A stretch of DNA of 64,000 nt from Nitzschia sp. pyKryTriq1 (taxonomy: Eukaryota; Bacillariophyta; Bacillariophyceae; Bacillariales; Bacillariaceae), in the NCBI GenBank assembly GCA_956465555.1, contig OY101118.1, forward strand, positions 1,054,001-1,118,000, given 5' to 3'. The translations under genes and the position numbers were made by a program. Shown here in pieces: positions 6,693-45,417 of the stretch. Position 1 is the stretch's first letter. Each line of letters starts with the position of its first letter. Below the pieces are notes generated by a model. That model was not told the origin of the DNA, searched no databases, and saw only the letters and a list, made by a program, of their open reading frames with translations.

Positions 6693-7200
6693 GGTTTTCA
6701 GGTCGGAATGTGCTTCACTTGCGATCAGGCGCTACGAGCTACGAGCACAACAACAACACTGTACCTGGTATGTACCCGTATCATTGTCAGATGTCAGATT
6801 TCAGATTCTGATGTGATGCTGATGGAGCCGCAGTGGTCTTGCACCCGAAGGCAGTATCTCCACGATCCGTCCCCGCAAAGACCCCGGGCTGCACAGACAG
6901 TGTCACCGGATTGTGCTTTTTTCAATTAGTTTTTATACGTCAACGAAGCTCACGATATTTGTTGCGCTGGCAGGTACGCGTTTTCGGCGAGTAACGATAT
7001 ACAGACATGATATTATTGCAATGATCCCGACATGGGAATTTCAGACATTTAACGAAGCTTCACCCGTTGAGATCGCACCGTTCGACCGCGACCGTTGAGA
7101 GATACATACAGATACTGTACCTTGTACTGTACCGATACTCGTACCTGTCCGGTACTGTACTGGTACCGGTACAGTAGGTCAGTTGTGTCGTTGAGATGAA
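6693..7200. other. Host spacer with GTAC-rich short palindromes
   Basis: No convincing gene is seen. Positions about 7117-7176 are packed with overlapping words such as GTACTGTAC, GTACCGGTAC and TACCGGTA, which recur in other spacers of this window. The Helitron-like island begins shortly after. Confidence 0.6.
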
Positions 7201-7252
7201 CTCCGTTGTAATGGAAAGAACCCGGATATACAATTTTAACGAGCCCGGATAT

Positions 7253-7279
7253 AATTTTTTGTTAAATTAACAAAAAATT
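7253..7279. repeat. Palindrome copy 1 (perfect, left edge)
   Basis: Arm AATTTTTTGTTAA, one central A, then the exact inverted arm. Thirteen-bp arms with a one-base centre make it a perfect two-fold site. It lies downstream of the nucleotidyltransferase gene. Confidence 0.9.
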
Positions 7280-7360
7280 TATTCTATCTGTTAGATTATT
7301 ATAATAAAACATGAACAAGTTGAAATGAAATATCTCCCTTTGTTATGTATAAGCTCGTAA

Positions 7361-8347
7361 TTATGGTCCTTCTATAAAGAACGGTCCGTTATTTCCGGGT
7401 ATGTCATGTCGCGGGCAAAACCAGATTATGCAATTTATGTCCGATTTGTCATCTCCGATGCGACAATGCACTGTAAAGTCCCTTGAAATAATGGCCTTCA
7501 TACGAGGTTCGAGCATATCAAATTTTCTCAATGTCCCGCCGCAGTGTCCTGTTGATGTTAGAGATGCACGCAGATCATCACTGTTAGGTTGTTCCCATGG
7601 TAGGTCCATATCCTGAGCCTTAAACAACAGTCGAATGAGCGAACCCCCTGGTTGTAACAGATTCCGGATGCCAACAATACGAAGCACACCATGATAAATG
7701 AATGACGTGAACATAATCTCAGTTACCCAACGAAGAATAATAATCGGATCCACCCCATCCACACTCTGACCCGTGTTGAATTCAGTGTACAGCTGGTCTT
7801 CAATGTTCTTATACCTTTCACGGTTGCGCGCCGATAAATAATTGAGCAAAAAATCATCGGCATTATTGATATGTCTCTTACGACGAACGGTCACGTCATA
7901 ACCGACCATCACGGCGTTGATATCGAAGCCTTCAATGACTGCCGCTATATTTTTTTCGCATCCTTTTACGATGATGAAATTAATCAGTACTTGTCTCACA
8001 CCCAGTTCATGTACTTCATGCCATTGGTGAAAGATAAATGGTGTGTAAGAAAGTCTCGACCCAACGAGAAACTGTGTGTGTGCTGACTCAACAGGTGATA
8101 CATGACATCCAGGAACATCAGAAAGTTTATCGTATTGTTGGTATTTGTCGAGGAGATACAGGTATACATCGACATCATTATATTTCAGTATACCATCGAA
8201 ACCCCTGCCCATTGCAATAATCGAGGCTGGGTAAGAGCCGGCAATACCAAAATCAGTGGGGTCGAATAAATGATTGTTGTGGTGTTTGCTTAGCACCGTC
8301 GCTAGGTACATAGTAAGTCTCTCGGGGTCTACTGGGGGAAACGACAT
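7361..8347 (-). CDS. Nucleotidyltransferase-fold protein of the island
   Basis: 328 aa from the first ATG (8347). The sequence shows the signature of the Pol beta-type nucleotidyltransferase superfamily: GSYPAS (Gly37-Ser38), then a D-x-D pair in NDVDVYL (Asp58, Asp60), and a third acidic residue in GFDIN (Asp142) about 80 residues later. These would bind the two metal ions. A helical C-terminal part with ISL/NRERYKNIE-like helices follows. The class includes poly(A) polymerases, OAS/cGAS-like and MNT-type enzymes; I cannot assign the subfamily. It is transcribed away from the duplicated promoter region shared with the small gene at 8909, and palindromes flank it on both sides. A nucleotidyltransferase is not a standard Helitron gene. 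Confidence 0.6.
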   Translation of the reverse strand: MSFPPVDPERLTMYLATVLSKHHNNHLFDPTDFGIAGSYPASIIAMGRGFDGILKYNDVDVYLYLLDKYQQYDKLSDVPGCHVSPVESAHTQFLVGSRLSYTPFIFHQWHEVHELGVRQVLINFIIVKGCEKNIAAVIEGFDINAVMVGYDVTVRRKRHINNADDFLLNYLSARNRERYKNIEDQLYTEFNTGQSVDGVDPIIILRWVTEIMFTSFIYHGVLRIVGIRNLLQPGGSLIRLLFKAQDMDLPWEQPNSDDLRASLTSTGHCGGTLRKFDMLEPRMKAIISRDFTVHCRIGDDKSDINCIIWFCPRHDIPGNNGPFFIEGP

Positions 8348-8493
8348 TGGTAAAGAATTCAATTCAATTTTATAATTTTCAATATTGTGGTATGTACCAA
8401 AATTTTAGGTCCCAAATTGCATGCTGGGCCCGTCTTCTATGACACGTTCTTAAAACAAGGACAATGAGGTTTTTAAAAGTTGACGTTTGTAGC

Positions 8494-8520
8494 AATTTAT
8501 TGTTAAATTAACAAAAAATT
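8494..8520. repeat. Palindrome copy 2 (one-base mismatch in left arm)
   Basis: AATTTATTGTTAA on the left and the intact right arm. It sits in the divergent spacer between the nucleotidyltransferase gene and the 185-bp tandem repeat. Confidence 0.85.
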
Positions 8521-8540
8521 ACGCTAATCGCAAGTTGAAA

Positions 8541-8910
8541 CGAAATGGGTAGAACGAGTCAGTCTTGTTTATCGCCGATAATGAGTCCCGCAAATATGCC
8601 TATGATTAAAATACACGAATAGTGCAGTCCTGTGTATGATCAAGTTCATTAATTGACGACAATACAGAAACTGTTGCTCGTTTTGACTTCATATAATACG
8701 TAATTCACACACGAGACATAACCAACGAAATGGGTAGAACGAGTCAGTCTTGTTTATCGCCGATAATGAGTCCCGCAAATATGCCTATGATTAAAATACA
8801 CGAATAGTGCAGTCCTGTGTATGATCAAGTTCATTAATTGACGACAATACAGAAACTGTTGCTCGTTTTGACTTCATATAATACGTAATTCACACACGAG
8901 ACATAACCAT
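8541..8910. repeat. 185-bp tandem duplication upstream of the small gene
   Basis: Two head-to-tail units, 8541-8725 and 8726-8910, starting CGAAATGGGTAGAACG and ending at GAGACATAACC. By eye they are identical. The second unit runs into the ATG of the gene at 8909, so the duplicated segment is the promoter/5' UTR of that gene. It contains no ORF of note. Confidence 0.9.
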
Positions 8911-9292
8911 GCTTGATGCAACCGAGGAGCTCAAGTTCCTATTCAGTAGTCTTGAAATCAACGAGGCAACACTCGAAGTCGTGGTCTCACTGGGTATTAC
9001 ATCCGTTACGGATCTCACCGTATTCAAATCAAGTATCAAAGAATGCACAAGAGTATCAAGACAGGATAGAAACACTCTACGGCATGCAATAGATTGTCTT
9101 CGTAAATTCGAGAAAGTCAACAGGCGTCAAATTAATATCCTGACAGAGTTTTCCATGGATGTCTATCAAGCGTATTATGAAGAACGGAGAGCACAATTGA
9201 TAGCCACTTTCGATCAGATGATCAGTACAATGCCAGCAGACAGTGATTTATCAACAAGCGAAGAAATGGCAGATTTACTGATGAATGGTTAA
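8909..9292 (+). CDS. Small island protein, 127 aa, unknown function
   Basis: ATG start directly after the tandem promoter repeat. The protein is mostly helical and charged. An N-terminal piece (LEVVVSLGITSVTDLTVFKSSIKE) resembles the helix-turn-helix-like SAM or HhH patterns common in protist mobile-element proteins. No catalytic motif is seen. A second, 5'-truncated copy of the gene lies at 9484. Duplication of both its promoter and its body suggests selection for dosage or recombination-prone DNA (inference). The palindrome at 9383 lies 90 bp after the stop. Confidence 0.6.
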   Translation: MLDATEELKFLFSSLEINEATLEVVVSLGITSVTDLTVFKSSIKECTRVSRQDRNTLRHAIDCLRKFEKVNRRQINILTEFSMDVYQAYYEERRAQLIATFDQMISTMPADSDLSTSEEMADLLMNG

Positions 9293-9382
9293 AGATTATC
9301 ATTGGTTTTTGAGAAAAAATGAATGAATTTTAGTACTTGTTTGAGCGTTTCTTAAGTGACAACCTTTGCTCCCGTTTTACAT

Positions 9383-9409
9383 AATTTTTTGTTAAATTAA
9401 CAAAAAATT
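9383..9409. repeat. Palindrome copy 3 (perfect)
   Basis: Exact 13-bp arms around a central A, downstream of the 127-aa gene. It is followed by a segment (GTTGCAAACGTCAAATTTTT) that is repeated after copies 4 and 5. Confidence 0.9.
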
Positions 9410-9479
9410 GTTGCAAACGTCAAATTTTTTAAATCCCTTTCGTAGTAAGAATTTATTTAGGTTTTATTTGCTCCCGATG

Positions 9480-9783
9480 TGTCTCTCTGGGTATTACATC
9501 CTCTACGGATCTATTCAAATCAAGTATCAAAGAATGCACAAGAGTATCAAGACAGGATAGAAACACTCTACGGCATGCAATAGATTGTATTCGTAAATTC
9601 GAGAAAGTCAACAGGCGTCACATTAATATCCTGACAGAGTTTTCCATGGATGTCTATCAAGCGTATTATGAAGAACGGAGAGCACAATTGATAGCCACTT
9701 TCGATCAGATGATCAGTACAATGCCAGCAGACAGTGATTTATCAACAAGCGAAGAAATGGCAGATTTACTGATGAATGGTTAA
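9480..9783 (+). pseudogene. 5'-truncated duplicate of the 127-aa gene
   Basis: From GTCTCTCTGGGTATTAC on, this matches 8979-9292 with a few substitutions and one in-frame 6-nt deletion (CACCGT missing). It ends at the same stop. The first about 25 codons and any ATG are absent, so it is probably not translated. The reading frame is nevertheless open throughout, so the duplication is recent. The duplication also includes the downstream palindrome and its tail (to about 9955). Confidence 0.8.
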
Positions 9784-9873
9784 AGATTATCATTGGTTTT
9801 TGAGAAACAATGAATGAATTTTAGTACTTGTTTGAACGTTTCTTAAGTGACAACCTTTGCTCCCGTTTTACAT

Positions 9874-9900
9874 CATTTTTTGTTAAATTAACAAAAAATT
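9874..9900. repeat. Palindrome copy 4 (one terminal mismatch)
   Basis: Same site as copy 3 in the duplicated unit; the outermost left base pair is lost (C for the first A of the arm). Confidence 0.88.
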
Positions 9901-9975
9901 GTTGCAAACGTCAAATTTTTTGAATCCCTTTCGTTGTAATAATTTATTTAGGTTTTATTTGCTCCCGATGTACAC

Positions 9976-10002
9976 AATTTTTTGTTAATTTAACAAAAAA
10001 TT
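9976..10002. repeat. Palindrome copy 5 (perfect, centre T)
   Basis: Exact arms with T instead of A in the centre. It sits between the convergent small gene or pseudogene and the 3' end of the Rep/helicase gene. The 55 bp that follow repeat the tails of copies 3 and 4 and run into the helicase stop codon. Confidence 0.9.
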
Positions 10003-10049
10003 GTTACAGACGTCAAGTTTTTGAATTCCGTTCCATAACATGAATTTAT

Positions 10050-13000
10050 TTAGGTTTTATGTTTGTTGTGGTTCGAGTGAACATTGATGACCTTCTCGAG
10101 GAATGTAGTTGATAGTTTTGTATTATTCAACCAGTTGATCAGTGACTTTTCTTTGTCGGGTGGTAGCGCATTTGTCCTGTTGTTTCGTTCTAGATACGTA
10201 GTCCACATATCCCTCTTTGTGACTCTGGAAAATACTTTCCCGTCTTTTCCGTGTACCATGTCTGCAATACGATCAATTGACATGTTTTTACCATCGTAGT
10301 AAATTGCCGATGTCAGTGGATCATTCGTATTTCCGATGGTTGTTCCGCGTGAGGAACCCGAATAAAATAACCCAGGAGATTTCCCTTCGAAAGTATGGGT
10401 GCCAGGGTCAATTATGATCGACTCTGCCAAGAATTTACGGGTTGTTGTATTCGGGCCAACTGTTGCACCTTGGAAAGTATGGATCGTTTGTCCATATGCA
10501 AGTCTCAGTGGCACTTGTCGTCTCCAGCAACATTTGTGTTCACATTGAACATCCACTGGCGTGATGGGAATAATGGTTGGATGTGTAGATAGAAACACTG
10601 GACCAGTATAGCCTGGGAAGTCAACAAGTACGTAACTTGGTAGATGTTTCTGATTGGGAGATTCGTTTTCGTCGAATACAATGTCAACGACCGTGCCAGT
10701 TGCGTTGTTGTATAGTCCCCATTCTGGTCTTATATTCCTGCCTGTAATTGCTACCTTGGATTGTCTTGCAAGAATGACCGCCTTTGGAAGATTCAATGCA
10801 TGTACCGGTTTCCCTTCTCCTGTTCCTCTGTTGTCTTTCCCCCTGATTCTCGCTACCGGGTTTTCTTCTGACGAGTCTCGATAAAGACACCGCTCGTTGT
10901 GTCTTTCCATCGGTTCTCTGTTAGCAAATACATATACCGACCGTTGTTTTATGATCTCCTTGTCTTCTGTGTTGAAGCGTTCATGGTCTAAGTGAAGCTC
11001 CATCAGTCGTTCGCATGCGTTTTTTGATGTATACCCGGAGTATGTTTGTTCAAGGATTTCCCTAAACTCTGTTTCCTCTGACTGTCGAAAGTTTGTAAAC
11101 AGAGTCCTTACGTTCCGTCCCATTTCACGAAATACACTGAGTCCTCTAGCCGTGGCAATAGAGAGCGATTTGCGGTAATCTTGAAAGTCAAATGCGCCAA
11201 TACCAACTGATGGTAATTGCCCGTCGTCTCCGAAGAATAAGACGATGGGAATACCACCCCAGCCGTGCTTTGTATTCGTATTTATTCCGTCGTGTGCTGT
11301 TTGATCAATATACGATGCCATTGTACCAAGTGTGTCCGCAGCTACCATGCTACGCTCGTCGAGTATGAGAACACAAATGTGCTTGTTCTGTTTCCTCATT
11401 TTGTTGCGTTTCAGTATTCCAAGTATAAGATTTTTGACACCGATCACAGGAACGAGAAATCGGTTGTGGATAGTCTTGCCTCCGGCGTTCGATGCTCCAC
11501 ATCCAGACGGGCAAACGACCGCTACGCTGTCTTCTGTGTCGAATAATTGTTTGATGGCGGATACGATGGTGTGTATCAGCGTAGTCTTTCCTGTTCCTGC
11601 CTTGCCACGGATTGTGAGTCGTAATGGTGTGAAATTGTTCATGCTGTCTGTACTTTCCGTACATTCCAGCCATTCACGTATTTTAGACATGACCTCGAGG
11701 GCGATTGCCCTTTGTTCGTTTTCGAGGTCTTCCATTTTATATTGACCGTCTGGGCTATTGGGATTGTAAGGTAGTCTGACTTTTGTGTCTTTTGCATCGT
11801 CAATCTTTCGGACTTCGTCGTCTAGCCACGTTGATGCAGTGTTTGTGTCAATCACGAACTCTGTATGGTTATCTGACCAGTTATAGTCGATGCCAAAATT
11901 ATACTCATAGTCGTATGCTTTGTCAGTCTTTGCGTTGGAGGACAACCCTGCGTAGCAGTCGATTGCGTCTTGTAGTTCCGGATCGGCTTGTTCTCTTGCC
12001 TCTTCTTCGTCGATGTGATCTCTTGTTTCAGTGGGTTCGTTGGTTGAATGTAGTGCTCGATGTTTGTCTGCTTCATATTGTAACCGAAGTGACTTTGGGC
12101 AATCCGTGGACTGAAGAAAATGTCGTAGTTGTGCCTTGTAATTGATGGTGCCCAGAGGTGTTGTTTTACTCCACGGTTTGTTAATGATCAGTAGTACTTT
12201 CGAATTGTATTCCGTCAACGGAAAGACTGGTTGTGACCCCCGACCAGGGAAATGGGGAATATATGTCTTACCGAGGCGAATCGAGTATTTTTCGATATAC
12301 CAATTGATGAATGAGATTCGTCGATTCTTATGTTCAATAATAGAACGCGACGAATATTCCCTTAAGTACCTGTTCGTGCCATTTGTACCATCCTTTGTGA
12401 GCTTTGTATATCCTGAGAGGCTTATTCGTTCGAATCTCTCGCTGCAATTATACAGTTCGAGCCCTGCGAGCTGTACCATACATTCCTGCTTTGACATCAT
12501 CTTTTCTCCCAGGTATCGGTTGAGTATTTTTCTCGCTAAAGATATAACGTCTCTGACACAGCCGGACGTTTCTTGCGTTGCCAATATTATTGAACGAAGT
12601 TGGAGTTTCTCCGATTGTAGGGTTTCGGTTCCTTTCGAGGCATATGTCACGAGATAGTTAGTTACTTTCGTGATGTCCTTCGCGTCGGGGTTGAAGGGAT
12701 CACTTTCGTACAGCATGATCTTCACATCGCAATTTGCTCGCCATCCGAATGCCAGTGCCATCGAGGTTGGAAGAATGTTGCGTCGCAATTTTGGTTGTTG
12801 TCTCGGTAGTTCGAATCGTTTGTATCCTTCTGGTTGTCTGACGATACCGGCATATTTCATGTTCTTGAAACCTGGTGTGTCGGCTTTGCCTGCTGTTTTC
12901 TCTACCCCACATCCCGCACGGCAAATACGACGCTTCTTACTTTGCTTGTCCTCTGTTTTTGCACTGTGTTATTGAAAACAATATGATTAGTTATTGTCTT

Positions 13001-14967
13001 GGAGGTCTTCGCCTGTCTGTCGATGCAACTTACAAGATTTTTCGTTTCCGTAAGCAATAATCTGTGCATTTATGGTTCTGCATAGATAAGAGGATTTTTG
13101 CCCCGTCTTCCCAGAGGTTGTTCTCGTAACAAGCCGATAAGCGAGTCGAGGCGGGGTGGTTTCTGTCTTCTAAATTGGGTTTGTACTCTGTCGTATCGAA
13201 TACTTCTGGTATTGCCGTCGTCATACATAGTTCAGTCTCGGCCCATCGTTGATATATTCCAGCCCGTTCTTCTTCTATGTCGTCTGTTATGTCCCTCTCA
13301 AAAGCAGCGCCAATTTCATTTGCTTGTATTTTTGCATCATGGGCTTCTTTCTGCATTGACATGTTGTCCAGAATTAATAGACAATGAGCATGGATCTGAC
13401 CCCGACCTGGTGCGAATTCGAAACGCAACCAATGATGTTTGATGTTGAAAACATTTTTGCCTACTGTCTCTAGCCAATTTTTGACGCGTTTCTGAAAGTA
13501 TTCCTGGATTACCAGGGTATATTCGTTGACAAGTTTCGACGCGGAAGGTTCTTCTGATGTCTCTGCTTCGTATTTTCTTCTTTCCTTCAGCAGATCTTCT
13601 ATGTCGGGCCAGTAATGCTCGGCGCAACTGAGAGTTAGAAACACCGTTGGTGCTCCGTTTTTCTTAAGGATGTGATATTGAATCCAGGAGTAGATCTCGT
13701 CTCGTCGCTGTCTCCAGTACGGTGAAGTGCCCTTTACTGTGTTCCCGAAGTAACAGATCTTATCAATCCATGAATCGTCTCCCTTTTCGATTCTTTTTTG
13801 TAGCTCCTCGAGACTCTGTGGTTGGTCGTTCCCAAGAAATTGTTTCACGTAAAAGTTGCCTTGTTTCATATTGGCCCTCCTGTTGGCGTAATTAAGGGCA
13901 TAAAAGCACCAGATCTTGTCCTTTGCGAATCGCCCGTCTTCGAAATACAGTAGTTTTTTGGCCCATTCTTCTACCGAAAGTCCCTCTGTGCTCTTCACAT
14001 CTGCCCAATCGCCCGTCCCCCCGGGATATAACCATGGGAAGGCGAGACAAAATATACGAAGCGAATCGTCGTACTCATCGATTGCTTCGGATCCGACCTC
14101 TGGGAATTTCATGGTACATTGTCGTTCACCGGGTTTTTCTTTCAGATGTTCCTTTGGTGTGTTGGATGCCCGGCTTTTTTCGAACCCATCGATCGTGTCA
14201 ACGGTTGCTTTGTCTTTTCGTTTCGGAAGATCTGATTTGTCGTCGTGGCTGATCACACCGTATGATGGAACTTCTTCGTTTTCCTTGTCTTTGTCTCCCG
14301 ATAATCCCTCGTCGATTGGTTCTTCTTCTCTTTCGACCAGGGTAACCGGTAATTCGGCCTCTTCGACTGGTCCCATCCAGTCTAGGTTTCCCTTGTTGAT
14401 GATGATATCCTTGTAATATTTGTTGTGTCGTTTCAGCCACCAGAGGGCCTCAAGCACAATTGACTTCCTGATCATGAATGTTTTGTCTTCCACTTCTTTA
14501 TCTTTTGTGAGACTTGTTCTTACGACCTTGATTGCCTCGACTTTCTTTCTAGGAAGTTCGGTTATAAAGTCCTGTATTTCTTTCGGGAACGAACAGACAT
14601 GGCCTCGGCTTCCATGTGATCCTCCTTTCAGATATCTCAAAGGTACATAGGTCGACACACGCTGTATTAGGAGTTTTTCTCCTTCTCTTAGTATCCTAAG
14701 ACAGCGTGGCACGGTATAATGCTTGACACCACTCTCGTCTTCCCATGTGGGTAACCAGCCTGGACTGTAGTTTGCGTTGTTTCGAATCTGTGCTCTGCAT
14801 GGCCTGCATGTAGGATGGGTCTTCATGATATCAATATTCGTGGACACTTGTCTACATACGGTACATCGCTGATGACGGATGTCTTTATTCATTGATTCGA
14901 AAAGAAGATTCTCCTTATGGGCAGATGGATGCTGAAGGTATAGCGACACACCGTCTTTCGGTGGCAC
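10050..14967 (-). CDS. Helitron Rep/helicase (HUH endonuclease fused to Pif1-family helicase)
   Basis: Two exons: 14967-13034 and 12963-10050. The 70-nt intron (GTAAGT...ACACAG) joins KRKI-F-AKTED in frame to give at least 1615 aa. Numbering starts at the valine codon at 14967, since no ATG begins the frame there. An upstream mini-exon at 15181-15121 (ATG, then donor GTAACA) is possible. Seen in order: zinc-finger Cys35/38/54/57; Rep motif FLTLSCAEHYW (443-453); the HUH motif IHAHCLLIL (His526, His528); WRANCD; and the two-tyrosine motif YLVTYASK (Tyr748, Tyr752). The helicase has Walker A GKAGTGKTT (1098-1106), Walker B LILDERS (about 1178-1183) and a late TIHTFQG motif. The Rep nicks and joins single strands for rolling-circle transposition. 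All key residues are intact, so it may be active. Confidence 0.92.
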
Positions 14968-15038
14968 ATCTTCTCGTCTGTGTTCATTAATCCCGATTGA
15001 GTTAGATATGGGTGCAAATGATTGTATGGGATCAACGA

Positions 15039-15065
15039 AATTTTTTGTTAAATTAACAAAAAATT
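15039..15065. repeat. Palindrome copy 6 (perfect)
   Basis: Exact arms around a central A, about 70 bp upstream of the Rep/helicase reading frame. It may lie inside a 5' intron if the gene starts at 15181. Confidence 0.9.
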
Positions 15066-15313
15066 GACGTGAGACAGGTTGATTTTTTTCAGGGGATGTA
15101 TGAAGTGATCGATGTGTTACCTTGTTTTCGTGTTTGTCGTTGGTGTTTGTTTCGTTCTGACTGCATGTTTTGTTCTGCCATGTCTTGTTTTTATTTGTTT
15201 CGCGATACGGCCTATGAGATAGAGACGTGATTAGACGCGGAATGTTTTATATTTTCGTTAGACATGTATAGAGTAATTTCTCCGATGGTGTTGGTCTCCG
15301 GACGGTTTGACTC

Positions 15314-16660
15314 TTAAGGGTTGGCTTCGGGTGCAGTTTGGGTTTCGCCATACACGTATTTCTTGAGACCATCAGGGATGGATTTTGCCTTGACGGCTTC
15401 TTCAGTCACATTAACACCGGTACTGATTGCCAATGCTGTCACAATGTCTTTGGAGGTCATTATTTTTGAAAGACAATCGTACTCCACGATCTCGGCGTTT
15501 TCGGTTAGGGAACCCTCCATCATCGACCAGTATTTGCCGTTTTGGCCTGCTGCATGCGAGCGTATGGGGCTAAGCATCTGGTTTGCGGCGTCGTTCTCGG
15601 AGCCTGCCATATATTGCATGTGGTAACAGCTTTGTATCTCGATATCGTTGAAAATAGGACCGTATGATTCGAAAATGTAATTCATAATTTCGTGGTCTTT
15701 CAAAGTCCTGGGGAGAACGATCATGAATAGGTCACGGTAAAGCGTCAATGACCCGGTGCGGCCCTTCGTTGTGATACTTTCGGGAATATCGTTTCCGGCG
15801 GGGTCGCGGAGTCGTACCGCGGTCATGTATGCTAGGAACATATTAATTCTTTTCATTCCCTCGGTGTCGTCTGCGAACATACGGAGTACTTCTTCCCACT
15901 TGTTTGGACGATGGAGCCAATGCGTGAAGTTGCGCTTGGGGTTAACAAAGTCCAAAAGTGCAATCCGTACTTTTTTAAATTCGGGTTCGTTTTTTGGGAG
16001 ATGTACGATGGCTTTGATACCAGAACTTTTGATAACAGCCTTCATTTTTTTTGCAAACGAACCCATTTCTTCGGTAGTTTCTTCTTCGGATTTTGTCGCC
16101 GCACGTTTGTTGCCCGATATATATGGATTATCGGTTTTCTTCTTGTATGCCAGTGGGGGGAGATCATTGCCGACACCGTTGCCTGTTGCGAAACAAACGC
16201 TGTTAATGAAGACCGATGGTTAGAAAAATACGAGTATGATGTCGGCATTTTACGTTGTGGTCTAAACTTACTCTTCTTCGACTTGTTTCGTGGTTGATGT
16301 TTTCTCGGGTGATACAACATTGGTTGGGCGAGTCTGTTGTTTGGTATCTTCAAACTCTTGTAGATTTTTGAACCTCATCACTTCGAAAGTCTTCGACTCC
16401 CCTTTTGTAATTATGGTGGTGAGCACGGTGGGAAGGTCCTCTTCCTTCTCCACCGTGACATAACCGTTATCTGTTTTGATACAGAAGATGCTGTGATCAG
16501 TCGCAACAGGTGGGTCGTTGTCGGGGTGTTCTTCGGTCTCTTTTTCGTCTTCGTCGATTGTTTCGTTACTTTCCAGAGCTTCGTCGTCGACGACATCACT
16601 GGTTGTCTTCTTACCTTTGTCAGCTTTCGCAGCGTTCTTTTTTCCTCCTCGTGTTACCAT
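15314..16660 (-). CDS. Island protein of unknown function, 424 aa
   Basis: Two exons: 16660-16272 and 16199-15314. The 72-nt intron starts GTAAGT and ends TTAACAG; the join reads VEE-D-VCFATGNGVG in frame. ATG start (MVTRGGKKNAAKADKGKK). The N terminus is Lys-rich, then very acidic (about residues 20-50), then a compact piece with VTVEKEEDLPTVLTTIITKGESKTFEVMRF. Exon 2 encodes a mixed alpha/beta region without recognisable motifs. I cannot assign a family. The basic-acidic start suggests a nuclear or DNA- or histone-interacting protein (inference). It is divergent from the 916-aa gene and shares with it a 0.9-kb spacer that contains palindrome 7. Confidence 0.65.
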
Positions 16661-17564
16661 CTTGGCGAGAATAGAATGTTGTGGTTGTGTATTTGTAGTA
16701 TATATTTCTGGTTTTATGAGATGATGGGATGGTCAATTCGCACATGGACAGAACCTAGTGTGGTTGTGAGTGGTCGTGCAAGAAATCATTTCGTTGATAA
16801 CTGAAAATTTCATTTCGGTTGGCTCGCCAGATGATTATATTTTGTCTCTATGCATTTTGGTCGTCAAATTTTGGGGGTCGACGAACAATTGTTTCATAAT
16901 ATCGGTATAATGATCACGTGGTATTATTGGGTTCGTGTTCTCTACTTGGGTGGCGTTTGAAATTTTTATGTCTGTGAGTTTTTCTATTTGTTATTTCGTC
17001 GCCATTAAGTCTGTATTTATTTTGCTCCTGAAATTTGAGATTCGCCTAACCGTATCGTATTTATCAATCGTGAATATTTTCATAACGTAGGTGGAATTTC
17101 TTGTGTCGACGAACGCTTCTTGTCTCGATTTTTCCTCGCCATTGTTAGATACTGGGATTACTTTTTGGTTCTTCTGGTTAAATTTTTTGTTAATATGCCA
17201 AAAAATTTCGTTCAGCGCTCTGATTTTTGAACTTCCGTTCTTTGGTTGATTGACTGAGTCGTGTGGGTGTAGCGATAGTCATTCCTTAATTAAATTTGTC
17301 GCATGTGACATTCTAATCTGATTTGTTTACGCCAAATCTGTCTTCAACGGTTGATTATTTGTTTTCGGTGATTGATTTCAGATTTTCGTTGGTGATGTTG
17401 TCATCATTATATTCGTCGAAGGACGCCAGCCCGGTTGTGGCGATGCCAGTTGCAACTGTTGTGTTGTTCTGGGTTCGGAAAGCGTCGGTTGAAACTGTCA
17501 TCATCGCTTGTCTCATATTCTGATTCATCCATAATTCGTATTCGGTTGCACCGACTTGACAACC
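16661..17564. other. Divergent AT-rich spacer between the 424-aa and 916-aa island genes
   Basis: About 900 bp without a supported gene. It must hold both promoters. Palindrome copy 7 (degenerate) is at 17181-17207. Confidence 0.6.
17181..17207. repeat. Palindrome copy 7 (degenerate)
   Basis: Left arm intact (AATTTTTTGTTAA); right arm reads ATGCCAAAAAATT with changes near the centre. It lies in the divergent spacer. Confidence 0.75.
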
Positions 17565-20393
17565 ATGGCCCTTGACGAAGACTATTTGCGGACTTTGTTT
17601 TCCGACGCATTCGAGGATGAATTGTTGGAATACATAGAGTATGGGGAGCAGAGCACCGATGAAGCACAATCCCCTGTTTCTGTCCAAGGAGAGGGGTTCA
17701 TAACCAAATATACGAAATTATATCAGGTGCATACTCGTTGTCATCAACGCGTCAAAGAATATGTCTCGACAAGACACGTTGTCGCGAAATTTGGTGACAA
17801 CGGGTTGGTTTTGGATGTCCCTTACCATGGTAAGTACATTTACGTCGGGATTGTTTCGGTGTTTTGTGTCTTCGTGTTCTAATATAACGTACCATCTTGC
17901 ATTTCAGTCGGACACTTCGATGTCATACGGAAAAATGTCGATGATTACAATAGTCTTCTCGTGGATACAGATCGGGTTTTCGATAATGCGGTTAGTCATG
18001 ACGCCTACGGTAGTCATAAAAGAAGCATGTCAATCAAGGATAGTTCGATGTTCGTTGAGCAGACTGGTGTAACTCTGTCGCCTTTCTCGTTCTGGTTGCT
18101 TCAGGAACAGGATCCCCTTGGTATGGGCGAGGTCATGGCACCCACGGTTAACCATCGGATGGCTAATCAGACAACATTCGCCATCCCGGATAGCACTGGG
18201 CGATCGTCGACGGATCTTTTACGAGACGGGTCGACTGACGCCACTATGCAGCGTCTACAAAATGGAACTATTGTCTCCTTGCCGTATGTCATTGTTTCTT
18301 CGAGTGAGATGATGAAGGACCTCAAGGCACCTTTGTTCAGGTCACCAACTTCGTTCAACTGGCGTGATGACAGGACTGCGAAGCACAATGTCTGGATACG
18401 GGCATCTGGTATAGCCGTTAAACGGCCTTTCATCGATGTTTACAAGTCACTGGCCGTTTTCTTCGGTTACCATCTTTCTCTTGACACATTGCCACATGGA
18501 CGAAGGATCAAGGCCTATGAGGAGAAGGTGGATTTCAGTGCCCTTTTTTCCCGCTTTACGAACTCTACGGTGTTCAATGTCGGTATTCTTAATAGCATCC
18601 TGAGAGCTATGTCTTTCCCTTTCCAATATAAAGACAGGATGCAGTCCGGTGAATCGTCGACGACCCTCGCGTTTGCTCATTTTGCAGCACTGTTTCGGTT
18701 CATTACACCTTTACGACTGGCGCAGCTCGAAGGGGGTCATCGGACTTTTCTTCTCAATCGGGTCCTCCAAGGGTACGACTGTGCACATTCGACCATACCT
18801 TTGCGATATGCACAGCTTAACGAGAAGATCACCAAGCCTTTCATGAACACAGGTACTCTCATGTCGAACTTGGCGCTGTCTTTTGTATATTTAAGACCCG
18901 ACGGGGAGAGACAGTCGAAGTATGGTTTGACACAGACACCGGCGGATTTCGTCATCGAACAGGATGTGGCTTTGATGCAAGAGTACAGTCGTGTAACTCA
19001 GGACTTTCGTCTTGAAACATATACTGACACCTTCGGTCATGTTCTACGATCCGCGGTGTACAAAATTAATCTTCGTGAACCCAATCAGATGCTCGATGAC
19101 AACAAGTTTTGGGGGACAGACGCGACTTATTTCGTTCGACCGCCTAGGAAGGGCAGTGCAGGTGTCACATTCGGGACCTATTTGTCGGGGTGTTTGAAAA
19201 TTATGATCGATGAACTTTTTGGTTCTCGGTATTTCAAGGATTCGAACAAGGCAGGGGACATCCACGAAGCTTTGGCCTTGTATTGTGCTGGTCCAAAAGG
19301 AGACGCGAAGTTATTTGCTAAGTCGATTGTGAAGGTGCCATTCCCAGAGTCTGTCGACCATATTCCGGCTGCCGTATACTACGTCCGAAACATAACACCG
19401 GCGTACAAAAAAACCAACCAGTATTTATGGTCACTCTGGGTCTCTGTTTGGTTCATCAAAACAAGTCTTACCAGACCATCAACCTTCGCGGTTTTTCAAG
19501 ATTTCCTAGGAGTGGAGCATCTACAGCCATTGTTACATGTCAAGTGGCTTCATGACAGCATTATTGTTCCGGTTGAAACACTTGCGCGTCATTATCTCGC
19601 AAAGGCCAAAGCTTTTACCCCTATGGACAGACGAAAGGCAAAGCTCTACGGATACCTCAAGGCTGTCTTTCTGGAGTATTATTTGAGCCAATTGTCAAAA
19701 TTTGAAGACATTCCGACCTCGTTCGATCAAGGCAGTGGCGCGTTACAGTTGGGGAACTACGTGAACAATGATGTGAGGTGCCTCATGACACAGATCGAGG
19801 TTGCAAAGCGGCTCGAAGATGACTATCCTTCTCCTTATCTTTCTATTCTGTGTATTCTTTATGCGCAGAGTGTCCGTCTTAATACGGACGAGACGCATCT
19901 ATCGGATGTTATTCAACTACTGTCTTCGTCGACCGGTATGTTGGTTGATACCGGGACTGAGACTCGTCCGTCCTCAGAGAAGCTTCAAGAGTTTGTTACT
20001 GCGATTACGATTGATCCTTTCCCAGACGCGGGAAGCTCTCTCGTGAATTTCATTCGTTCCAAACTGGCAGCAGAATCAGTTGGAGGTTTTCCTTCCAGTT
20101 TAATCCAAGTTTTCGCTCCACCTGTTCACCATGCAAAGCGTAAGTCTGACGAATCTGACAAAGATCAGCCAGCAGCAAAGAAGGCTAATACGGACCTCGA
20201 GAAGGAAGAAGTGCATTGTTTGATTCAATGCGTTAATTTATATTTGAGCGGCAAGAGTAGAAAAAAAGAGGAAATTGCCAACAGGAAATTGCTGAAAGAG
20301 GCATTGCCTAAAATTCAAAAACTCGTGTCTCCATACAGTGACGAGGTGTCTATTGTCCAAAATAAATTCGTTGTCCAGCCAAAAAAGGTATAA
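17565..20393 (+). CDS. Large island protein of unknown function, 916 aa
   Basis: Two exons: 17565-17829 and 17908-20393. The 78-nt intron (GTAAGT...TTTCAG) joins PYH-V-GHFDVIRKNV in frame. ATG start (MALDEDYLRTLF). The body is long, helical and rich in aromatic residues, with no catalytic motif I recognise. Near residue 830 is a bipartite nuclear-localisation-like stretch (KRKSDESDKDQPAAKK), and the C terminus is Lys-rich. It is the longest unknown of the island and starts away from the divergent spacer; palindrome 8 lies 22 bp after its stop. The size, single copy and lack of enzyme motifs would fit a structural or DNA-organising protein, but that is speculation. Confidence 0.7.
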
Positions 20394-20414
20394 ATTAAAG
20401 GCAGCTACGTACGT

Positions 20415-20441
20415 AATTTTTTGTCAATTTAACAAAATATT
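20415..20441. repeat. Palindrome copy 8 (degenerate, right edge)
   Basis: AATTTTTTGTCAA, central T, then TTAACAAAATATT: two changes from perfect. It is the last copy and marks the approximate right limit of the island. Confidence 0.75.
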
Positions 20442-20445
20442 TCAT

Positions 20446-21291
20446 CCAATGTACAAGATTATATTTCATTTTTCCTCGTCGGTCAATCTATGCGACTAAT
20501 ATGACTTTCTTTCTTCTACCTTCCGCCCAAATCCGTCTTTTATTTGGCAGAGCCACCAATTATGCTACAAGAATGACTGTCCTTCTGTCCCCACTGCGGC
20601 GTGAGGGGTGGTACCAATGTCGGAGACACATACATCCTTCCCAGTACGTCAACCCCCACCTCTCGCGCTCAGCGACGACGCACTTTTAGTGCTACTTGTA
20701 GATACAAACTCCATCTTCTGCAAGGTCTGGGCTGACCGGCGTGCGATATTCTGATTTCAGCCAATTGGAACCCACACCGATGTCTGGAGAACGGCTTCCA
20801 CGCGTCACAATGACATGTAGCCGGCCGCTTCAAATTTTCAAAAAAGTCTCTTCACCGCCCTCGCCCCCTCTTGCAGATGTTAATACCGGTACATACCAGC
20901 AGGTACATACGTACAATGCATCGCCATCCTTCGCCACAGAACGACCAACGACCATGGACCATTGATAGATTACGTACAAGTACCGTTACTTCGTACTGGC
21001 ACGCTGGTACTCTCTATACTATGAATCTACTGGAGTAGACTAGCAAAGCAAAGGTAGCGTAAAGGTAGACTTCTTCTAGACTATCCTTGCGCTAGTAGGT
21101 TATCATGTTTTCGCTAGCCGGCGAGAGAACTTGTTCTAGCTAGCCAGCATTTTTTCAGTCTGGTAGAATGGAAATCGAAGCGGTATCATCATGTAATCTA
21201 AGAAGTGCATCCAATGTAGTCATTATTTAGAAAAAGATTAGGTTTGTTGAATTATCATCATTTTTGCATCAGTATTTCCCTCGAATCTTTT
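20446..21291. other. Host spacer, no gene seen
   Basis: About 850 bp holding short GTACC-type palindromic words and CTAG-rich stretches (for example 21070-21145). The right junction of the Helitron-like island must lie within the first part, but no repeat marks it. Confidence 0.5.
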
Positions 21292-44486: not shown

Positions 44487-45011
44487 GATTACTGCTTACA
44501 GAAACAAAAAATCTTGTAAGTTACATCGACAGACAGACGAAGACCTCCAAGACAATAACTAATCATGTTGTTTTCCATAACATAGTGCAAAAACAGAGGA
44601 CTAGCAAAGTAAGAAGCGTCGTATTTGCCGTGCAGGATGTGGAGTAGAGAAAACACCAGGCAAAGTCGACACACCAGGTTTCAGGAACATGAAATATGCT
44701 GGTATCGTCAGACAACCAGAAGGATATAAACGATTCAAACTACCAAGACAACAACCAAAATTACGACGCATGGTAAAAACATGTCGATTGACCGTATTGC
44801 AGACATGGTACACGGAAAAGACGGGAAAGTATTTTCCAGAGTAACAAAGAGGGATATGTGGACTACGTATCTAGAACGAAACAACAGGACAAACGTGCTA
44901 CCACCTGATAAAGAAAAGTCACTGATCAACTGGTTGAATATTACAAAACTAACAACTTCATTTCTCGAGAAGGTCATCGATGTTCACTCGAACCACAACA
45001 AACATAAAACC
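44487..45011 (+). mobile_element. Internally deleted fragment of a second Helitron Rep/helicase copy
   Basis: 44487-44770 matches the reverse strand of 13062-12779, including the 70-nt intron. 44771-45011 matches the reverse strand of 10293-10053. The two blocks have exactly the same lengths as their counterparts (284 and 241 nt), so only a 2485-bp internal deletion separates them. That deletion shifts the frame, so no protein is possible. Identity is about 93 percent by eye, with many transitions. Neither palindromes nor ends are present; the match stops one codon before the helicase stop. Confidence 0.92.
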
Positions 45012-45417
45012 GGACTCATTCTTGGCGATAGACAAGACTAAAGGACAATCCGGTGACAATGTGGGCAGCCCGGGGTCTTTGCGGAGACGGATCGTGGAGA
45101 TACTGCCTTCGGGTGCAAGACCACTGCGGCTCCATGATACAAGCATTATCGGCGCACACATGCGCACTACCGGATGGCGCACAGGCCTGGAATCCGGAAT
45201 CACTACTTCATTTTAAAAACAAACGATGGCATTACTCCCTGCCGTTTCGTCACACGCCGTTCTCGTCAACTCGCCTCTCTCACACCTACATAATATGTAT
45301 GTATCTCTACGACGTATTGTGAGGCATCATCGATAAAATAAACGGATTTTGGTATCTCACTACTTGTACAGCAAAAAGACACTGCCAACTTTACTCTTTC
45401 CAGTTCAGATTTCTGGT

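Follow-up and report, generated by a model that had tools for sequence, protein, structure and literature searches.

Does a Helitron that carries several genes besides its transposase move them as parts of one unit, or do those genes merely lie next to it? The question was raised by a 64,000-nucleotide (nt) stretch of the genome of the diatom Nitzschia sp. pyKryTriq1 (assembly GCA_956465555.1, contig OY101118.1, forward strand, positions 1,054,001–1,118,000), hereafter the window, in which a first-pass annotation had described a gene-rich Helitron-like element encoding a Rep/helicase (RepHel) and four further gene units, all bounded by the same palindrome. Helitrons are usually described as encoding RepHel with at most RPA, OTU or an endonuclease added, other genes within them being captured passengers. 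The diatom origin is well supported by the genome's gene content: it gave eight matches to silicon transporters, a family typical of diatoms, each exceeding the family cut-off, against one match, under the cut-off, in 14 control genomes. We searched the assembly (40.65 Mb in 20 contigs, a single genome) for copies of the element and of its genes; these searches score best candidates only, so the match counts are lower bounds. The locus very probably holds a complete, recently active diatom Helitron whose mobile unit includes four accessory genes.

Ends, transposase and derivatives of the element

The ends were mapped by aligning the window element to 12 other genomic copies, and the resulting 13 copies with shared ends are referred to as family A. 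The sequence common to the copies stops at A|TGGAGCCGCAGTGG on the 5′ side and at GCACTTTTAGTGCTACTTG|T on the 3′ side, and these two points therefore delimit the element (Table 1). A hairpin with a 5-bp stem, GCACT-TTT-AGTGC, lies 6 nt inside the 3′ end and is followed by TACTTG|T. No 5′ hairpin is convincing in family A; besides the 3′ hairpin, a subterminal inverted repeat of 10–11 bp (GCCGCAGTGG) is present. The termini, TG...CTTG, are not the canonical 5′-TC and CTRR-3′ of Helitron1. Across all fetched loci with a recognisable end, the base before the 5′ junction was A in 22 of 22 distinct junctions and the base after the 3′ junction was T in 18 of 18; this count omits the 5′ ends of L048 and L050 and the 3′ end of L074, which are too unlike the search strings, and loci whose other end is absent or was not reached. 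These junctions are the A^T insertion pattern of Helitrons, with no target-site duplication. The first-pass annotation had bounded the element at 7200–20445, with palindromes as the boundary. The copies continue past the outer palindromes, which rules these out as ends, and the element reaches 430 bp further left and 257 bp further right than they do.

The transposase gene is intact and spliced, as had been proposed. Its two exons, joined across a GT-AG intron, encode a predicted protein of 1590 amino acids (aa) from the first Met, with the frame open for 118 further codons upstream. In Pfam, the exons match Helitron_like_N (E = 2.4e-20), DUF6570 (E = 4.8e-20) and PIF1 (E = 9.5e-17), and none matched an AP endonuclease, a Helentron trait; among PDB sequences, the protein matches Pif1 chains (E = 2.2e-11). 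The motifs are kept, including HAH at residues 501–503, YLVTY with its two tyrosines at 723–727 and Walker A at 1073, together with a zinc-finger-like motif, Walker B, GDDGQLP and SSR. Judged by its sequence, the protein has the combination that marks the Helitron superfamily, an HUH, two-tyrosine Rep fused to a superfamily 1 (SF1)/Pif1 helicase. Helraiser is reported to lose transposition when its equivalent histidines, tyrosines, Walker lysine or motif-VI arginine are mutated (PMC4778049).

We mapped 14 other copies onto the window element. Most proved to be internal deletions; only a 3′ part was seen of C12:184 and C1:4092, and no 3′ end was seen in C4:1099. Pieces of the putative nucleotidyltransferase gene are retained in five copies, of the 127-aa gene in two, of the 916-aa gene in seven and of Rep in one, in the order seen in the window; two of the 14 also keep 33 bp that span the start of the 424-aa gene. 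Every match to an accessory gene that the genome searches listed fell inside a Helitron copy (916-aa, 8/8; nucleotidyltransferase, 8/8; 127-aa, 3/3; 424-aa, 1/1, the last searched with the homolog P0007 in place of the window's own protein). Because deletion copies retain gene pieces in window order and all returned matches lie within Helitron copies, the extra genes belong to the unit. Their occurrence apart from the transposon, which the first-pass annotation had held to speak against a single unit, was not seen among the matches listed for this one genome, and on the strength of these matches and the mapped deletions we reject host genes lying beside a plain Helitron.

One type of internal deletion junction recurs at three loci and another at two, at 98–99% identity, indicating that some derivatives were themselves recently mobilised. 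One derivative, a 361-bp copy at C3:1688113 (L049), retains only 40 bp of the 5′ end. Its right flank carries a 71-bp repeat that starts ≤3 bp from the insertion point and occurs at six other loci (L084 and L085 among them); the two that were read have a left flank unlike that of the 361-bp copy. A further deleted family A copy (L037/L015, C3:1561491–1565303) contains a foreign insert of ~3 kb near its 5′ end, partly a tandem array of AACGTCC-like units.

Accessory genes and a second Helitron family

All four gene units proposed beside the Rep/helicase were found: a putative nucleotidyltransferase of 328 aa and proteins of 127 aa, 424 aa (spliced) and 916 aa (spliced). The five genes together span 7361–20393 and are distributed over both strands (Table 1). 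Nucleotidyltransferases share the signature hG[GS]...DxD plus a third carboxylate, and the 328-aa protein carries the motifs GSY...NDVDVY and FDIN. It has no significant model match in Pfam, NCBIfam, PADLOC or PHROGs (best match in Table 1), and the nucleotidyltransferase call, which comes from the motifs, is putative. None of the accessory proteins has an accepted match in NCBIfam, PADLOC, PHROGs or Pfam. DUF4636, hit by the 127-aa protein (E = 0.0016), and Ku, hit by the 424-aa protein (exon 1, E = 0.026; whole protein, E = 0.34), fell under the curated cut-offs and were not accepted. Sequence searches of solved structures with the 424-aa, 916-aa and nucleotidyltransferase proteins gave nothing significant (a single chance match, E = 1.9).

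Relatives of two of these proteins exist elsewhere. The protein search returned one homolog of the 916-aa protein (P0001, 42% identity; longest metagenome contig 10,383 bp) and six of the 424-aa protein (P0002–P0007, 37–71% identity; metagenome contigs up to 13,390 bp, those behind P0006/P0007 being 11,843 and 13,390 bp long); a prokaryote genome scan with the 424-aa family brought nothing further. The 916-aa protein, P0001 and the 916-like C-terminus read in the second family described below have a basic tail that may be a nuclear signal. Near the 127-aa gene, a perfect 185-bp tandem duplication (8539–8723 / 8724–8908) lies upstream, and a second duplication, with a spacing of 491 bp, covers the gene itself at 99%; both are recent, local changes within the element.

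Eight loci match the 5′ end of family A over its first 30 bp alone, with 100% identity, and form a second family, B. Across shared stretches its members are ~96–100% alike; apart from these 30 bp, they resemble family A only over ~55 bp close to the 3′ end (82%). The 3′ end was found at four loci and reads GCACC-TTC-GGTGC-TACTTG|T, with one base pair of the stem altered on both sides relative to family A; the subterminal repeat is 10 bp long in A and 11 bp in B. Two B loci contain relatives of the nucleotidyltransferase (30–32% identity) that lie close to the 5′ end in antisense, the arrangement also found in the window; the block FDINAV(M/V)VG(Y/F)DV is well kept in family B. One B locus contains a relative of the 916-aa protein (31–33% identity) in sense orientation. 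A 2,082-bp B element combines a nucleotidyltransferase piece with a 916-like C-terminus before the 3′ end, the latter read by eye. Since relatives of two of the extra genes sit in the same places in this distantly related family, the extra genes appear to be long-established components of the mobile element rather than passengers. That two accessory genes kept their arrangement in families that are ~31% identical in protein and have diverged bodies suggests selection on the element itself. Together with the ends, the A/T junctions, the intact RepHel motifs and the deletion derivatives, this second family bears out the gene-rich Helitron lineage that the first-pass annotation had put forward.

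Other Helitron remnants were seen outside both families. Rep/helicase relics lie at C1:2661091–2661435 (L034; 22% identity) and C2:1018223–1018679 (45–58% identity). Loci L048, L050, L051, L052 and L075 each have one recognisable, partly diverged Helitron end and are probably more families or decayed copies.

Palindromes between the genes

The element contains eight 27-bp palindromes, all internal and sited in the gaps between genes. The first-pass annotation had described them as evenly spaced and had taken this as a sign that the genes travel together. Successive start-to-start distances are 1241, 889, 491, 102, 5063, 2142 and 3234 bp, and one copy arose through the duplication of the 127-aa gene; the spacing is therefore not even and the argument from it was wrong, although the evidence given above backs the same conclusion. 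With arms ≥10 and loop ≤3, the element has five palindrome places, and three dinucleotide shuffles of it gave 0, 1 and 0; two such places, each resembling simple sequence, occur in the 43.3 kb of the window that follow the element on its right. The 19-base palindrome core, with ≤1 mismatch, occurs at 28 genomic sites (reversed-pattern control, 0), all 28 of them in family A: 7 in the window element and 21 in the 12 other copies.

By coordinates, a palindrome follows the stop of each gene by ~20–250 bp. Since palindromes also precede some starts, they are sites at gene boundaries rather than terminators alone. Family B has a palindrome of its own, GTATTTTG...CAAAATAC, in three of the eight B loci read; neither the window nor 214 kb of other, mutually overlapping loci contains it. 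In the longest B element, it lies ~155 bp past the stop of the 916-like gene, and a degenerate one lies ~30 bp past the nucleotidyltransferase stop. The presence of family-specific sites at comparable places suggests that each family's own proteins or transcripts may use them. The palindromes might instead be AT-rich repeats spread by duplication and without function, as their low-complexity composition, the copy that came with duplication of the 127-aa region and the imperfect copy at 17181 would allow. We consider this somewhat unlikely, given that the core is confined to family A and that a different palindrome stands at comparable places in family B.

Table 1. Features of the Helitron and of a related fragment in the window
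Feature	Position	Strand	Note
Whole Helitron (family A), 13,876 bp (13.9 kb)	6823..20698	+	Comparison with 12 other copies; junction bases
5′ terminus, 30 bp	6823..6852	+	Identical in eight family B loci
Subterminal inverted repeat GCCGCAGTGG, 5′ copy	6827..6836	+	
Subterminal inverted repeat, 3′ copy	20591..20600	-	98 bp from 3′ end; family B retains it at 11 bp
3′ hairpin GCACT-TTT-AGTGC and terminal TACTTG	20680..20698	+	Family B: GCACC-TTC-GGTGC
Putative nucleotidyltransferase, 328 aa	7361..8347	-	Motifs; best library match PHROG 1614, E 0.067
127-aa protein gene	8909..9292	+	
Partial duplicate of 127-aa gene	9478..9783	+	Residues 25–127, 96% identity
Rep/helicase exon 1	13034..14892	-	Zinc-finger-like motif, HUH Rep domain
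Rep/helicase exon 2	10050..12963	-	Y-x3-Y, Pif1-type helicase
424-aa protein exon 1	16272..16660	-	Homologs P0002–P0007
424-aa protein exon 2	15317..16199	-	Conserved core
916-aa protein exon 1	17565..17829	+	
916-aa protein exon 2	17908..20393	+	Homolog P0001, 42% identity
27-bp palindrome 1	7253..7279		
27-bp palindrome 2	8494..8520		
27-bp palindrome 3	9383..9409		
27-bp palindrome 4	9874..9900		Within duplicated stretch
27-bp palindrome 5	9976..10002		
27-bp palindrome 6	15039..15065		
27-bp palindrome 7	17181..17207		Imperfect
27-bp palindrome 8	20415..20441		
Deleted family A relative	44487..45134	-	97 bp of 5′ end and two Rep/helicase pieces (93–94% identity); 3′ end not found

Alternative readings, proposed mechanism and known Helitrons

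Several observations weigh against a complete Helitron with four genes of its own. Only one copy, the window element, has all five genes. Flank comparison revealed no clean empty site in the genome, so the A and T at the junctions could formally belong to the element. For the putative nucleotidyltransferase, none of 839 candidates in the protein search reached E ≤ 0.001. Family B is known solely from deletion derivatives, and relatives of Rep and of the 127-aa and 424-aa proteins were not found in its loci. The 10 kb read around the older relic L034 showed no match to any accessory gene, and the accessory set is thus not universal. If a plain Helitron had recently picked up adjacent host genes by end bypass, the extra genes would be passengers and the single copy with five intact genes would be accounted for; capture of host sequence by Helitrons is known, with full-length capture being rare (PMC6431247). 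Capture is nonetheless improbable, as the genome searches returned no host copy of any accessory gene, family B carries relatives of two of them (30–33% identity) oriented alike with respect to the ends, and homologs of the 424-aa and 916-aa proteins exist elsewhere; moreover, end bypass would add genes past the 3′ end, and in this element the shared ends enclose every gene.

The first-pass annotation had also entertained an integrated DNA virus. Such a virus, or a virus–transposon hybrid with a Helitron-type Rep and the 424-aa and 916-aa proteins as virion proteins, would suit the compact two-strand gene layout with palindromes in the gaps, the two large proteins without known relatives and the location of their homologs on 10–13 kb metagenome contigs. 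Yet the ends, junctions and deletion derivatives are all Helitron-like, and the basic tail of the 916-aa protein, if a nuclear signal, also speaks against a virion role. No capsid or packaging family was matched in Pfam or PHROGs, and in six scans of viral contigs the Rep/helicase and the nucleotidyltransferase, 424-aa and 916-aa proteins had no relative; four of the six used single-sequence queries, which reach close relatives only, and the 127-aa protein was outside the scans. Neither these scans nor the sequence searches of solved structures yielded positive evidence for a virus, which is not disproof, and we regard this origin as very improbable.

For the favoured Helitron with accessory genes, homology to Helraiser suggests how transposition would proceed. 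The Rep domain would nick at A|TGG, and the Pif1-type helicase would unwind the DNA, peeling off one strand, until stalled by the 3′ hairpin; the second tyrosine would then cut the strand after CTTG, and the freed strand would circularise, the circle inserting at AT. Action in trans, on 5′ ends as short as 40 bp, would fit the derivatives, provided that the deletion at C3:1688113 predates its insertion. The accessory proteins would most simply be nuclear helpers of transposition. More tentatively, the 916-aa and 424-aa proteins may have the single-stranded or replicating intermediate as their nuclear target, a role filled by RPA in plant Helitrons; the nucleotidyltransferase may modify nucleic acid of the element or the host, and the palindromes may serve the element's own genes as binding sites or as transcript boundaries.

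The nearest published element found, proto-Helentron-Pi of Phytophthora infestans (PMC4067079), compared by description only, is likewise ~14 kb long, encodes a RepHel that lacks an endonuclease, integrates between A and T with no target duplication and carries several extra proteins, and multi-gene Helitrons are therefore already known in stramenopiles. Its ends are 5′TT and 3′CTAG, and its extras are a SET-domain protein and two hypothetical proteins of 218 and 266 aa, so that, by description, the gene set here appears to differ. Helitron1/Helraiser (PMC4778049) shares the HUH, the two tyrosines, the SF1/Pif1 helicase, A^T insertion, a 3′ hairpin near the end and deletion derivatives; it differs in its TC...CTRR termini, against TG...CTTG here, and the four accessory genes and the subterminal inverted repeat are features of the present element. 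Helitron2 (PMC3627910, PMC5148889), characterised by asymmetric terminal inverted repeats and a hairpin at each end, also has short asymmetric inverted repeats near its ends and a RepHel that may be oppositely oriented; in contrast, the element here has no convincing 5′ hairpin, its junctions are A/T, and its 3′ repeat lies 98 bp from the end instead of directly upstream of the hairpin. Helentrons (PMC4067079, PMC9741609) are similarly large RepHel elements with extra domains or genes (OTU, VTD, RPA), whereas their AP endonuclease and TT insertion were not seen here. Literature on diatom, stramenopile and microalgal Helitrons and on accessory genes, represented mostly by titles and the openings of abstracts, contained no description of this element. 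The transposase of the element is ordinary; what makes the element unusual is its conserved accessory genes and the palindromes at its gene boundaries.

A bolder reading, which we think unlikely, is that these elements represent an old, distinct Helitron lineage of diatoms and other microbes, which began as a two-domain transposon and has been developing into a small autonomous replicon. If so, the lineage would have its own nucleic-acid-modifying enzyme, two new nuclear proteins that stand in for RPA or protect the single-stranded circle, and at its gene boundaries a family-specific palindrome read by one of these proteins, so that expression, replication or even packaging would be coordinated; the 10–13 kb metagenome contigs with homologs would then be whole relatives. 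For the Helitron with four accessory genes itself, the finding provides a defined set of uncharacterised proteins and a defined DNA site with which to probe roles in eukaryotic rolling-circle transposition, and natural deletion derivatives such as the 361-bp copy offer small substrates for doing so.

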